DNA of 64,000 nucleotides. It comes from Thermophilibacter provencensis (GTDB taxonomy: Bacteria > Actinomycetota > Coriobacteriia > Coriobacteriales > Atopobiaceae). Shown piece after piece: positions 1-32,748 of this stretch. Under the pieces are notes generated by a model. It saw only the letters and a program-made list of their open reading frames with translations. It was not told where the DNA came from and did no database searches. Position numbers and translations under genes: made by a program. The stretch spans positions 1,474,769-1,538,768 of the forward strand of contig NZ_LT671417.1 of the NCBI RefSeq assembly GCF_900128445.1, given 5' to 3'. How positions within the stretch are numbered: the first letter of the stretch is position 1; the number at the start of each line of letters is the position of its first letter.

Positions 1-1611
1 ACCGAGTCCGACGTCTTTCCGGCCATCAAGTACACGCGCGAGAGGCACCGCAAGGGGACGCGCTACTTCGGCCCCTACACCGACGCGCGCGCCGCCCGCG
101 AGACCATCGACACCCTGCGCAAGGTGATCCCCATCTGCATGGCCACCTGCGTCGAGTGGAAGCGCGCCCGCCGCCTGCTCGAGAAGTGCCCCGAGCAGGC
201 CTCGGTCGCCAACCTCATGCTCGCCGAGCGGTGCCGCCCCTGCTTCGACTATCACGTGGGGCGCGGCCCCGGCGTCTGCGCCGGCATGATCGATACCGTG
301 GAGTATGCCCGCCACGTGCGCCAGGTGGAGAACTTCCTGAGGGGCAACCGCTCGCAGGTGGTGGGGGAGCTCACCGAGCAGATGCGCGAGGCGGCGGCTG
401 ACCTCGACTTCGAGCGCGCCGGCCGCCTCAAGGCGCGCCTCGACGGGCTCGACGCGCTCGACGACCGCCAGCAGGTGGTGTTCTCGTCCGGCGTGAACGC
501 GGACCTCATCGGCTTCTACCGCGAGGAGACCATCAGCTGCGCGTGCGTCTTCGCCGTGCGGGAGGGCCGCACCGTTCGCTCCGTCGAGTTCGTGCTCGAC
601 AAGGGCCTCGACACGGGGGAGGAGGAGCTCGTCTCCGGCTTCCTCAAGCGCTACTACGACGAGACGGCCGACGTGCCCGCCGAGGTGGACCTGCCTGCGG
701 AGCTCGAGGACGCGGAGCTCATCGAGGGGTGGCTCGCCGAGAAGCGCGGGCACTCCGTGCGCCTGAGGCGACCGCAGCGCGGCGAGAAGCGCCGCCTGCT
801 CGACATGGCCTCCGCGAACGCCCGGCACGCGCTCATGCGCTACATGGTGCGCACCGGCTACGCCGACGACCGCACGAACAAGGCGCTCCTGCAGCTCGAG
901 AGCGCGCTCGCCCTCGACGCGCCCCCGATGCGCATCGAGTGCTTCGACATCTCGACGCTTCACGGCCACTTCACCGTGGCCTCGATGGTGGTCTTCACCA
1001 ACGGCCGCCCGGACAAGTCCCAGTACCGCCGCTTCAAGATCCAGACCCCGCTCACCGAGGCCAACGACTTCGTCTCCATGTCAGAGGTCCTGGGCAGGCG
1101 CTACTCCCCGGAGCGCATGGCCGACGAGCGCTTTGGCAGCCGCCCCGACCTGCTCGTCGTGGACGGCGGCAAGCCACAGCTCACGGCCGCCATGGAGCAG
1201 CTCGCCGAGCTCGGGCTCGACATCCCGGTCTGCGGGCTCGCCAAGTCCGACGAGGAGATCTTCGTCCCCTGGGACGAGACGCCCGTCGTGCTGCCCTCCG
1301 GGTCGCCCTCGCTCTACCTCATCAAGCAGGTGCGCGACGAGTCCCACCGCTTCGCCATCACCTTCCACCGCGAGCTGCGCGACAAGGCCATGACGCGCTC
1401 GGTGATCGATGACGTCCCCGGCGTGGGCCCCAAGCGCAAGCGGGCGCTCATGCGCCGCTTCGGCTCGATCAGGAGGATGCGCGGGGCAACGGTGGAGGAG
1501 CTCGCCGCGACCCCCGGCATCCCCGCCGAGGTGGCCACTGCCGTCTGGCAGGCGCTGCGCGCCTGGGACGAGAGGGACGGGCTCGAGGGCTCCGGGGCGG
1601 GAGCGGACTAG
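1..1611 (+). CDS. uvrC: UvrABC system protein C (5' end outside window)
   Basis: This is the excision-nuclease subunit that makes both incisions around a UvrB-bound DNA lesion in nucleotide excision repair. The reading frame is open from base 1, so the start and most of the GIY-YIG domain lie upstream; about 536 residues are visible. Seen here are the tail of the GIY-YIG region (YFGPYTDA), a cysteine-containing stretch (RCRPCFDY), a UVR motif that contacts UvrB (around LDFERAGRLKARLDGLD), the RNase H-like nuclease core with acidic residues in ECFDIS and VVDGG, and a C-terminal helix-hairpin-helix region (DDVPGVGPKRKRALMRRFGS). In many Actinobacteria uvrC is followed directly by rapZ. Here an array of repeats and a carbohydrate block of about 14 kb intervene. 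Confidence 0.97.
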   Translation, partial: TESDVFPAIKYTRERHRKGTRYFGPYTDARAARETIDTLRKVIPICMATCVEWKRARRLLEKCPEQASVANLMLAERCRPCFDYHVGRGPGVCAGMIDTVEYARHVRQVENFLRGNRSQVVGELTEQMREAAADLDFERAGRLKARLDGLDALDDRQQVVFSSGVNADLIGFYREETISCACVFAVREGRTVRSVEFVLDKGLDTGEEELVSGFLKRYYDETADVPAEVDLPAELEDAELIEGWLAEKRGHSVRLRRPQRGEKRRLLDMASANARHALMRYMVRTGYADDRTNKALLQLESALALDAPPMRIECFDISTLHGHFTVASMVVFTNGRPDKSQYRRFKIQTPLTEANDFVSMSEVLGRRYSPERMADERFGSRPDLLVVDGGKPQLTAAMEQLAELGLDIPVCGLAKSDEEIFVPWDETPVVLPSGSPSLYLIKQVRDESHRFAITFHRELRDKAMTRSVIDDVPGVGPKRKRALMRRFGSIRRMRGATVEELAATPGIPAEVATAVWQALRAWDERDGLEGSGAGAD

Positions 1612-1686
1612 CCCTCCTGCCGCCCGGTCCTTCTCGCGACGCCTCCCCGCACCCGGGTGCCGCGCCACGTCGGGCATCGCCCGACA

Positions 1687-2230
1687 CGCAGTTCCGCATC
1701 TGAGCGCGTCACGGGACGCGTTGCCGCGGCGAGAAGAACTACGGCCTGCGGAGCCGTGGTCCTCGCGCCCGCGACTGACGCTCATTTCCGGAACTGAGTG
1801 CGCCATGGGGCGCAACGCCGTGGCGAGAAGTACCGCGGCCTGCGGAATCATGGCTCACGCAACCGCGACGGACGCTCAATTCCGGAACTGAGTGCGGGCG
1901 GGTACTCATTTCCGGAACTGAGCGCGGGCCCCCACCCAGTTCCGCATCTGAGTGCGCCATGGGACGCGTCGCCGCGGCGAGAGGGCCCTCGGCCCGCGGA
2001 ATCGTGACTCTTGCGCGCGCGTTCCCCACTCATTTCCGGAACTGAGCGCGGGTGGATGCTCAGTTCCGCATCTGAGTGCCACCCGGCGCCCGACGAGACG
2101 GCGAGAAGGACCTCGGCCCGCGGAATCATGGCTCACGCACCCGAGGCTGACGCTCATTTCCGGAACTGAGTGCGGGCGGGCGCTCAGAACCGGAACTGAG
2201 TGGTGTCCGATGCGTACTTCCGGAACTGAG
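1687..2230. repeat. Phased array of ten 18-bp palindrome-like repeats
   Basis: Ten copies of an 18-bp near-palindrome, consensus CTCATTTCCGGAACTGAG or the variant CTCAGTTCCGCATCTGAG, begin at 1687, 1781, 1875, 1905, 1935, 2029, 2059, 2153, 2183 and 2213. Successive starts are separated by exactly 94, 94, 30, 30, 94, 30, 94, 30 and 30 bases, so spacers are only 12 or 76 bp long. The 12-bp spacers usually begin YGCGGG. The 76-bp spacers resemble each other and carry GGCGAGAAG followed by CGGCCYGCGGAATC. Because 94 is not a multiple of three and stops are rare in all frames, the long reading frames across the array look accidental. No cas genes lie nearby and spacers are conserved, so this is not CRISPR. 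A protein-binding array or a clustered palindromic element is likely; function unknown. Confidence 0.9.
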
Positions 2231-2284
2231 TGCGTCGCGGCGAAGTCCGGCCCGGGGCGGGGTGGGGGCGGGCGATGGCGCGCA

Positions 2285-2632: not shown

Positions 2633-4243
2633 ATGAAGAAGCTCATGAACAGCGCCGTGTCGCGTCGCACGTTCCTCGGCGGGGCGGCGGCGGCCGGCGC
2701 TCTCGGCCTGGCGGCCTGCAGCGGCGGCGGGGACACCACCACGACCGACGACACCCAGGGCGATGCCTCCGCCACCGGCGGCAACACCATCTCCGCGGGC
2801 TCCGCGTACGCGCCCTCCGAGTACAACCCCACGAAGACCTCCTCGGCCTTCTGCCTGGGCTCCAACTGGCACGTCCTCGAGGGCCTCTACGGCACCGACC
2901 CGCACGACTACTCCACCTTCCCCGAGCTCGCCACCGGCGACCCGGAGCAGGTCGACGAGACCCACTTCACCATCTCCGTCCGCGAGGGCGCCGCGTTCTC
3001 CAACGGCAACCCCGTGACCACCGCCGACATCGTCGAGTCCTTCGACCGCACCAAGGCCGACGCCACCTACTCCGCGTTCCTCGCCCCGATCGACGCGCTC
3101 GAGGCCACCGATGACACCACCATCACCGTGACCACGGCCATCGCCAACTTCTCGCTGCTCAAGGAGCGCCTGGCGCTCGTCCGCGTCTTCCCCGCCGGCA
3201 CCACCGACGACGAGCTCTCGAGCCAGCCCGTCGGCTCCGGCCCCTGGATGTATGACGCCATCACGGACAACACCGTCGACCTCGTCCCGAACCCCAACTA
3301 CAACGGCTCCTATCCCGCCGAGGACGCCGGCCTGCACTACGACATCCTCGTCGACGCCACCGCGCGCATGACCGCCCAGCAGCAGGGGACCACGCTCGTC
3401 ATGGAGTCCGTCACCGCCGACGCCATCGACATGATCGAGTCCGCGGGCTGCAAGGTCGACAAGGTCCAGGGCTTCGGCACCCGCTTCATCATGTTCAACA
3501 CCACGAAGGCGCCGTGGGACAACAAGGCCGCCCGTCAGGCCATCATGTACGCCCTCAACACCGACCAGATGATCGAGAACATCTTCAGCGGCCTCGCCGC
3601 GGCGGCCTCGTCCTACATCCCGGTCGACTTCCCCAACTACCAGGAGGCCGCGACGGTCTACACCTACGATCAGGAGAAGGCCAAGAGCATGCTGAGCGAC
3701 GCCGGCGTGACGCCGGGCGACCTCGTGATCCGCACGACGGACAACACGCAGGCCGAGCAGATGGGCATCCAGGCCCAGCAGGACCTCGCCGCCCTCGGCT
3801 TCAACGCCACCGTCACCACCGACACCTCGGCGGCCACCTACGCGGCCATCGACGGGGGCTCCGACAACTTCGACATCCTGATCGCCCCCGGCGACCCGTC
3901 CTGCTGGGGCGCCGACCCCGACCTGCTCCTCAACTGGTGGTACGGCGACAACGTCTGGCAGCAGACCCGCACCGGCTGGGGCTCCTCCGCTGAGTTCGCC
4001 CAGATTCGCGAGCTCATGACCGCGGCCCTCGGCCAGTCCGGCGACGAGCAGCAGGCCACCTGGAAGCAGGTCTACGACCTCATCGCCGACAACTGCGTCC
4101 TGTACCCGCTCATCCACGTCCAGACCGTGACCGCGTCCTGGGCCGACGCCGCCACCAGCCCCAGCGGCATCGCCATCGAGGGCTTCGAGGGCATCGGTAC
4201 CACGGGCATGAACTTCATCGGCTGCAAGACCGTGAGCGCGTAG
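2633..4243 (+). CDS. Family-5 ABC transporter substrate-binding lipoprotein (SatA-like)
   Basis: This is an extracellular solute-binding protein of the peptide/nickel family (SBP_bac_5), 536 residues, the usual length for the family. The start at 2633 follows GGAAAGGGAGAGA. The N-terminus combines a twin-arginine-like motif (SRRTFLGG) with a lipobox LAAC (Cys29), so the mature protein is probably a membrane-anchored lipoprotein, possibly exported by Tat. It is the first gene of a four-gene ABC system. Family-5 proteins normally bind oligopeptides, but a subset (SatA of Haemophilus ducreyi, SiaE of Corynebacterium) binds sialic acid. Here the operon is followed by NanA-, NanK- and NanE-like genes, so sialic acid or a related amino sugar is inferred as the ligand. 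A peptide ligand cannot be excluded from sequence alone. Confidence 0.88.
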   Translation: MKKLMNSAVSRRTFLGGAAAAGALGLAACSGGGDTTTTDDTQGDASATGGNTISAGSAYAPSEYNPTKTSSAFCLGSNWHVLEGLYGTDPHDYSTFPELATGDPEQVDETHFTISVREGAAFSNGNPVTTADIVESFDRTKADATYSAFLAPIDALEATDDTTITVTTAIANFSLLKERLALVRVFPAGTTDDELSSQPVGSGPWMYDAITDNTVDLVPNPNYNGSYPAEDAGLHYDILVDATARMTAQQQGTTLVMESVTADAIDMIESAGCKVDKVQGFGTRFIMFNTTKAPWDNKAARQAIMYALNTDQMIENIFSGLAAAASSYIPVDFPNYQEAATVYTYDQEKAKSMLSDAGVTPGDLVIRTTDNTQAEQMGIQAQQDLAALGFNATVTTDTSAATYAAIDGGSDNFDILIAPGDPSCWGADPDLLLNWWYGDNVWQQTRTGWGSSAEFAQIRELMTAALGQSGDEQQATWKQVYDLIADNCVLYPLIHVQTVTASWADAATSPSGIAIEGFEGIGTTGMNFIGCKTVSA

Positions 4244-32387: not shown

Positions 32388-32515
32388 TTCATGTCTGCCC
32401 CGAGCGCTCGCCGCGGTAGGGACTCAGGGGGCGGGGCTTGCTGGACAACAGACGCGCCGGGGGAGCGGTCGGATGCTTCTGCGGGGGGCGACAAGCAGGC
32501 GGAATGGCCGCGCGT

Positions 32516-32713
32516 TGTCGAATCGGGGGTCGTGGCAATTCCCGGTCCCGCGGCGTTGTCGCGTTGGGGGTTGTGGCAGTCGCGGCTTGGCCTCAACTGG
32601 GCGTTCTTCTCGCCCCGTTGCGGAATCTGGGGTCGTGGCAGGGCGAATTCTGCCACGACCCCAGATTCGACAGCGCCGCGGCGGCCCGGATTGCCACGAC
32701 CCCCGATTCGACA
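32516..32713. repeat. Nested hairpins of the GTCGTGGCA family
   Basis: Outer arms 32516-32539 and 32690-32713 form a 24-bp perfect inverted repeat (core TCGGGGGTCGTGGCAAT). Inside it, 32623-32641 pairs perfectly with 32650-32668 (core CTGGGGTCGTGGCAG, 8-nt loop), and a decayed copy lies near 32557-32580. The stretch 32390-32748 between tRNA-Val and the minus-strand sulfatase gene contains only these elements and one TTCTTCTCGCC word. The structure may act as a terminator for the minus-strand gene. Confidence 0.88.
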
Positions 32714-32748
32714 GCGCCGGCCGGTGACGGTACGGCCGCGCGCCGGAG

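Follow-up and report, generated by a model that had tools for sequence, protein, structure and literature searches.

The palindrome array beside uvrC in Thermophilibacter provencensis: a probable solo copy of the repeats that bracket a putative nuclease-like gene

Why should ten regularly spaced palindromes stand between uvrC and a transporter gene of Thermophilibacter provencensis, and what are they for? The array lies at 1684..2233 of the window, the 64,000-nucleotide stretch of DNA analyzed here. It follows the 3' part of uvrC, which the window start cuts (1..1611, plus strand; Pfam UvrC domains for 124-1611; the full-length gene is at L147:9452-11380), and its downstream neighbor encodes an ABC-type solute-binding protein (2633..4243, plus strand; SBP_bac_5, E 1.1e-56). 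By mismatch search and model matches it is an array of ten degenerate dyads. The original prediction, made from this stretch alone, described ten 18-bp palindromes spaced by 30 or 94 bases, and these spacings and their order were reproduced exactly: the cores start at 1687, 1781, 1875, 1905, 1935, 2029, 2059, 2153, 2183, and 2213, with start-to-start spacings of 94, 94, 30, 30, 94, 30, 94, 30, and 30. The palindrome is real but wider than 18 bp, the repeat unit being a dyad of about 24 bp centered on CG, with the consensus GTACKCANNTNCGNANNTGMGTAC; a core pattern was used to collect the dyads, and part of the conservation of that core therefore comes from the selection itself. A search for CTCAGTTCCGGAACTGAG at up to 3 mismatches gave ten matches in the 64-kb window, all in the array, against 0.01 expected, and the earlier remark that no further copy was noticed in the window stands.

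The suggested alternation of two palindrome variants survives in part. Each of the three GCATCTGAG copies (1687, 1935, 2059) precedes a 94-bp step, and the palindrome after a 94-bp step is CCGGAACTGAG in four of four cases, but the fourth such step is preceded by a CCGGAACTGAG copy (1781), so the rule linking variant and spacer is not reciprocal. The four 76-bp spacers (1705..1780, 1799..1874, 1953..2028, and 2077..2152) are mutually similar, as claimed, with pairwise identities of 50-58 of 76 bases; the remaining spacers are 12 bp. The word GGCGAGAAG, said to mark the long spacers, is present in three of them (at 1728, 1822, and 2100), is replaced by GGCGAGAGG in the one at 1953..2028, and is not specific to the array, with 36 copies in the window against 1.7 expected. 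A CRISPR array, dismissed at the outset, is ruled out by the varying repeats and by spacers that are not unique but either alike or of 12 bp. A coding repeat was also rejected: 30 bp would make ten codons, but steps of 94, 41, and 83 bp would break the frame. Rfam over 1500-2700 gave five matches up to E=1, every one under its gathering score, and plasmids searched with the array gave no match.

Other short words are abundant in the same DNA. GCGAGAAGRAC occurs 25 times in the window against 0.14 expected, at sites that include 1627, 1729, 2101, 2349, 16877, 39556, and 60611, and 15 of the 25 are intergenic by our own gene calls. The genome holds 623 copies against 23 of the reversed word, both strands about equally, and each of 31 genus genomes has 77-946, while most other genera of the family are near the control level. 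DNA uptake sequences have similar statistics. In two trmH-ftsH intergenic regions (L231, L232), GAGAAGRAC and its complement form inverted pairs inside terminator-like stems, an arrangement also found for the uptake sequences of Neisseria. Downstream of uvrC in four relatives (L009, L014, L020, L021) lie A/T-rich repeats, TGCGCAAAnTTG...TTTGCGTAAAAATGA, followed by a gene that we take to be DeoR-like.

The search for the palindrome across the genome and its relatives, suggested in the original prediction, places the uvrC array as one of eight. In the 2.63-Mb genome (G000; 3 contigs), a 3-mismatch search and a sequence model of two neighboring units identified eight intergenic arrays of the GTACKCANNTNCGNANNTGMGTAC dyad, all on contig C3. 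The mismatch search found 37 places, one of which (C3:1697344) is a stray outside every array, and all 101 model matches listed at E<=1 fall within the eight arrays; of 1154 first-look candidates for the model, 150 were scored. Besides the window array between the UvrC and SBP genes (C3:1476441-1477008), one array separates the L24 and L5 ribosomal protein genes (C3:697242-697526) and two lie in the interval between a SpoU methylase and FtsH (trmH-ftsH; C3:1693290-1693518 and C3:1694850-1695251). Four more are at C3:1673934-1674220, C3:1799569-1800071, C3:1943738-1944282, and C3:2326359-2326834; dap genes, rpsO, maf, and aroK, named from a reading of the open reading frames, are near other arrays. 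A single unique operator is ruled out by these eight loci, and the idea of a single nucleoid, partition, or iteron site, raised in the original prediction, finds no support for the same reason, one of the arrays standing between the L24 and L5 genes. Nor are the palindromes scattered at random over hundreds of intergenic sites, which had been named as an outcome that would tell against an organized array.

At uvrC, only two of the 80 loci scanned in relatives (L007 and L008) contain the palindrome, even with as many as 4 mismatches allowed; the contig of the former breaks off inside the array, its final letters, CTGTCTCTTATACACATCT, resembling a library adaptor. Among the 21 of these 80 downstream sequences that were inspected, nine array-free loci (L011, L016, L017, L018, L019, L023, L025, L027, and L030) have, about 300 bp away, a next gene whose beginning resembles that of the window's gene. 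Two close relatives, G097 and G112, both carry arrays at matching loci, namely uvrC, L24-L5, trmH-ftsH, and the stretches L142 and L145, with a sixth (L146) in G097. The flanks of these loci are about 88-98% identical to those of G000. Array content across 11 locus comparisons was unaligned in six, partly aligned in three, and fully aligned in two (trmH-ftsH of G097 at 97% and uvrC of G112 at 99%), and two G097 arrays (L124, L126) have no counterpart array within the stretches compared. Model matches at E<=0.01 occur in 12 of 140 family genomes, ten of these in the genus, and are few (1-4) in G091, G092, G100, and G104. A genome of another genus (G066) has 72-bp tandem units (L139 1-630 and L140 180-540) with inverted half-sites of two types, AGTTCCG...TGCGTAC and ACCTCCG...TGCGTGC; these are a divergent relative of the GTACKCANNTNCGNANNTGMGTAC dyad in a different layout.

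The earlier remark that 30 and 94 bp are close to whole helical turns holds over 181 spacings in four genomes. The sample comprised 210 dyads from eight stretches of G000, eight of G097, five of G112, and five of G105, counting steps of 20-135 bp between dyads with no more than one core mismatch. The observed steps, of 29-31, 40-43, 52-53, 60-61, 65, 71-72, 82-84, 93-94, 103, 105, and 123-127 bp, fall near whole turns, the 65-bp step, which spans a degenerate unit, being the clearest misfit. At 10.5 bp the resultant over all 181 steps is R=0.914; for the 71 steps of at least 35 bp it is 0.843, with a best period of 10.55, and the maximum over 5000 jittered sets was 0.357. Steps are not independent, arrays being partly common to several species, but when each of the 23 distinct step values is taken just once, R is still 0.728, and 0 of 20000 random sets came up to it. 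Phasing is kept in two close relatives; its loss there had been named as evidence against an organized array. Such phasing would be selected by proteins in contact with each other on one face of B-DNA. It is firmly established for these type-1 arrays only, with an exact geometry for the type-2 element described below; an unweighted spacing test on the flanks of all homolog loci of the gene introduced below did no better than its control (R 0.314 vs. 0.342).

We also asked whether the two arms of the dyad pair as in a hairpin, at the free positions outside the pattern-selected core. In 69 dyads, mirrored variable positions pair no more than independence predicts, except positions 2/23 (65% vs. 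52% expected, p 0.04), and pairing at positions 9/16 is rarer than expected (29% vs. 47%). A second set, of 103 distinct G097 and G112 dyads, gave no significant pairing excess at any mirrored variable pair, with positions 2/23 at 52% vs. 47% (p 0.17). An RNA hairpin role is disfavored, since co-variation at mirrored variable positions was not replicated.

Two of the eight arrays bracket a gene, P0001, which encodes a protein of 364 amino acids (C3:1693539-1694630, minus strand) between trmH and ftsH, about 217 kb from the uvrC array and outside the window. P0001 has no NCBIfam match, no PADLOC match, and no credible Pfam match. Homologs are nevertheless widespread, occurring in 116 of 140 family genomes (E<=1e-10) and, when a profile is used, in 148 of a sample of 246 genomes from the class; within the own genome there are 15 matches, spread over about 13 loci. 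No match to P0001 came from viral contigs, phages, or plasmids, and PHROGs gave none for four array-bracketed members and weak matches to two unknown families for one distant member.

An alignment of 28 of 30 homologs, two near-duplicates having been left out, has a conserved core, (R)KPD...(D/E)YxGxxH...D..R..E, within which the lysine position of PD-(D/E)XK varies. Of ten distant homologs, nine match REase_MTES_1575 and five match DUF559 over this core at E<=0.5, the best REase_MTES_1575 match scoring 24.2 bits (E 3.6e-5) against a curated cut-off of 38.2. Five of the 28 aligned members match REase_MTES_1575, with a best E of 0.016, and one distant homolog weakly matches AbiEi_1 (E 0.036). 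A structure of a distant member (L066) modeled from one sequence had a pLDDT of 36.5, and the search of solved structures returned three matches at E 0.17-2.2, none relevant. For neither P0001 nor any of the 28 aligned members did the matches listed at E<=1 include Y1_Tnp. The C-terminal stretch with KPD...(D/E)YxGxxH...D..R weakly matches the PD-(D/E)XK-like DUF559 and REase_MTES_1575 models, but every nuclease-family match of the P0001 family is under the curated Pfam cut-offs, and we tentatively read the C-terminal stretch as a PD-(D/E)XK-like domain of a putative nuclease. We know of no bracketing arrays for DUF559 or REase_MTES_1575 proteins.

Bracketing by repeats extends to other members of the family. 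We compared the flanks of 30 homolog loci at 36-100% identity, of which 29 were usable (one short flank was left out). At many of them the same words lie on both sides and on both strands, but the palindromes differ from the GTACKCANNTNCGNANNTGMGTAC type and include GGACCCAAATCCGGATTTGGGTCC, GAACCCAAACC, CCTAAGCGC, GTCCTGAAAA, GACTTGGCAG, and AGTTGTGGCA. The two flanks have a mean of 26.1 10-mers in common per locus, and 21 of the 29 loci lie above 12, the 99th percentile for 748 pairs of mismatched flanks; several of the 29 are one locus in related genomes and not independent, and part of the shared words is the abundant GCGAGAAG motif, carried by the null pairs too. Control loci share a mean of 3.5 10-mers both at uvrC (23 loci, maximum 10) and at trmH (26 loci of at least 3800 bases, maximum 11; with all 30, including 4 incomplete loci, mean 25.3 and maximum 493). 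Arrays do not characterize the protein family as a whole: eight of the 29 loci are not above the flank null, only four of the roughly 13 homolog loci of the own genome (P0001, L179, L183, and L188) have clear bracketing repeats, and so do five of 20 more distant homologs, among which the association fades. At three loci (L155, L157, and L172) the flanks share almost nothing, L157 having dyads on one side.

Two paralogs of the own genome (L183 and L188) are bracketed by still other repeats: TACCCGGAG, at steps of 20-21 bp, and GTGCGGCC/AGTGCGGC. TTGACAT has no common occurrence upstream of 30 cassettes on the gene strand. Among 283 loci, AACTTGACATAAG lies, on the other strand, beside the cassettes of P0001 (G000, G097) and of a paralog at C3:947541 only; at L148 2710-2722 and L179 2674-2686 it is about 118 bp from the starts of two paralogs whose palindromes differ.

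Gene clade and dyad type agree. G100 and G104 hold 59 and 43 copies of ACCCAAATCCGGATTTGGGT, the dyad beside their homologs, against 0-10 in each of the 29 remaining genomes of the genus (none in 21, 1-10 in 8), with 0 for the reversed-sequence control. For the GTACKCANNTNCGNANNTGMGTAC type, model matches occur in 10 of 31 genus genomes and a homolog at least 52% identical in 10 of 31, nine being common to both sets and G090 and G085 the odd ones.

The site occupied by the gene differs as well. Thirty genus genomes have trmH, and two of their contigs stop too early for the trmH-ftsH interval to be read; in the 28 readable genomes the cassette is present in three and absent from 25, where trmH and ftsH are 43-425 bp apart between protein matches. 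In the 2.3-kb interval with the cassette, P0001 is the only gene, and no transposase was seen inside. Across ten genomes, members of the close subclade of P0001 are found at four different loci, and at one shared locus other homologs stand in opposite orientation. Comparison of these intervals indicates that the trmH-ftsH cassette is an insertion. Of the hypotheses first offered for the palindromes, a cluster of mobile palindromes is now favored, the dyads bracketing a gene cassette that is absent from the same interval in 25 relatives. Two gene-free intervals, L228 (425 bp) and L243 (392 bp), hold repeats of other types, CCAGCCCCAAA and GTTTTGGGCAACA.

The paralog at C3:947541 provides a second case with a different layout, being flanked by two five-site elements in mirror orientation. 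A solo copy of this type-2 element is in the window downstream of tRNA-Val (32512..32717), with 26-bp sites at 32512+, 32553+, 32615+, 32651-, and 32692- and the word GGCGAGAAGAAC at 32603..32614 on the minus strand. The search for this type began from 12 loci with TGCCACAACCCC (17 places vs. 2 in the control), and the geometry, + 41 + 62 + 36 - 41 - or its mirror, is identical in 11 of the 12; the remaining locus has no element, and one element lacks one recognizable site. In a gapless alignment of the 11 copies, mean pairwise identity falls from 0.74 within the sites to 0.50 in the stretches that separate them and 0.34 beyond the 206 bp. No target-site duplication was recognized around the 11 elements.

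We think it probable that the array beside uvrC is a solo version of the site array cognate to the nuclease-like P0001, within a gene-and-repeat system similar to REP/RAYT. P0001 would be a sequence-specific, putatively nuclease-like protein whose own gene sits between two cognate arrays, and the plan of the clade would be one of single-copy genes, each bracketed by its own palindrome type, with solo arrays of that type in other intergenic regions. Such a system would be built on a PD-(D/E)XK-like protein in place of an HUH transposase. Protein dimers may bind the dyads on one face of the DNA and assemble cooperatively, with arrays that must keep rotational phase. If the nuclease fold is active, its activity may spread or maintain the arrays, for instance through cleavage and copying from one array to another by recombination. 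Gene and arrays together may form a unit comparable to RAYT and REPs, either selfish or domesticated.

The strongest alternative is a role in the service of the host, architectural or regulatory: the arrays would be operators or nucleoid-organizing sites that the cell keeps at fixed loci, and the protein a domesticated regulator that binds DNA and also controls its own gene. The same phasing across many steps would fit this role, as would array loci that are the same in three species despite content turnover in 6 of 11 comparisons, and an exact type-2 geometry with spacer identity near 0.5. We consider it unlikely all the same: the genes neighboring the arrays are unrelated, relatives with the same uvrC and trmH-ftsH neighbors have no arrays, and dyad type tracks the bracketed gene, not the neighbors. 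The known partition sites made of palindromes, parS and sopC, are likewise arrays, but here there are eight loci with different neighbors and more than one dyad type in one genome.

Mobility might instead come from elsewhere, the arrays being the ends of an element moved by another transposase and the nuclease-like gene its cargo or one subunit. Transposon ends with multiple sites are known from the TnsB sites of Tn7 and from the ends of Mu, and each cassette end here has several site-like repeats, in mirror orientation, with cassette-free sites and several locations to match. Viewed as a possible IS element or MITE, the type-2 copies have inverted element ends and no recognized target-site duplication. 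Transposon ends are an improbable explanation given a single gene and no transposase in the 2.3-kb interval, no duplication recognized around 11 type-2 copies, the pairing of each dyad type with one homolog clade, and own-genome solo arrays that outnumber cassettes for both mapped types. We give just as little weight to a defense or toxin-like unit, its nuclease acting against foreign or rival DNA and its arrays keeping that nuclease in check, sequestering it, or marking self. The nuclease-like signal, the AbiEi_1 match of one distant homolog, and the many diversified paralogs would suit such a unit, but PADLOC gave no match, phages, plasmids, and viral contigs have no homolog, and simple autoregulation needs no solo arrays far from the gene. 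That the palindromes act in transcripts as terminators or stabilizers, as some REPs do, is hardly credible: they are palindromic and intergenic, but the one pairing excess (2/23) appeared in the first set only, 1500-2700 has no Rfam match above gathering, and hairpins are not expected to show helical phasing.

The preferred reading, of a nuclease-like gene with its own site arrays, is best placed beside REP/RAYT. According to PMC2817692, RAYT genes are always flanked by two inverted REPs, evolve faster than their neighbors, and correlate with cognate REP abundance; PMC3116915 describes RAYTs as single-copy and REPINs as non-autonomous mobile DNA. Measured against these accounts, the P0001 system is alike in several respects: palindromic repeats stand on both sides of P0001-type genes, and each repeat type has a single gene; inverted cognate copies lie beside the gene, as at the 21 loci above the null and in the mirror elements at C3:947541; cognate repeats are dispersed intergenically and abundant where the gene occurs; and P0001 is more diverged (76% amino acid identity with the gene of G112) than its flanking open reading frames (88.5% and 99.6%, G000-G112). 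It is unlike REP/RAYT in that the P0001 family has a different protein signal with no HUH/Y1 transposase match, in that GTACKCANNTNCGNANNTGMGTAC dyads do not co-vary as hairpins, and in its phased double-strand arrays of many dyads. We rate the system as new because REP/RAYT, the one known kind it resembles, fails on the defining protein and on hairpin pairing. The odds seem about even that it represents an undescribed prokaryotic class of diversified nuclease-fold paralogs, several of them paired with a private multi-site DNA address of fixed helical geometry, which surrounds the gene and has copies at many intergenic places; the system would be selfish or domesticated and would repeatedly evolve new DNA specificities. 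A stricter reader could class it as a variant of gene-associated palindromic repeats. Our literature search, which covered open-access texts and so few subscription journals, found no paper on such a gene-plus-repeat system, and the main text of PMC3733652, on palindromic repeat super-families, names no Olsenella, Atopobium, Coriobact-, Actinobact-, or Eggerthella.

If the reading is correct, the P0001-type system would be a second, independent solution to the role of REP/RAYT, with a different protein and a different DNA logic of phased double-strand arrays. The class would be a natural source of matched protein-site pairs, and the many such pairs within one genus could reveal how a nuclease-like fold changes its DNA specificity. 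The arrays also allow a test of whether binding that depends on geometry can preserve a repeat family even as its sequence turns over. For Olsenella-like gut bacteria, the system would explain part of the intergenic repeat layer of their genomes.
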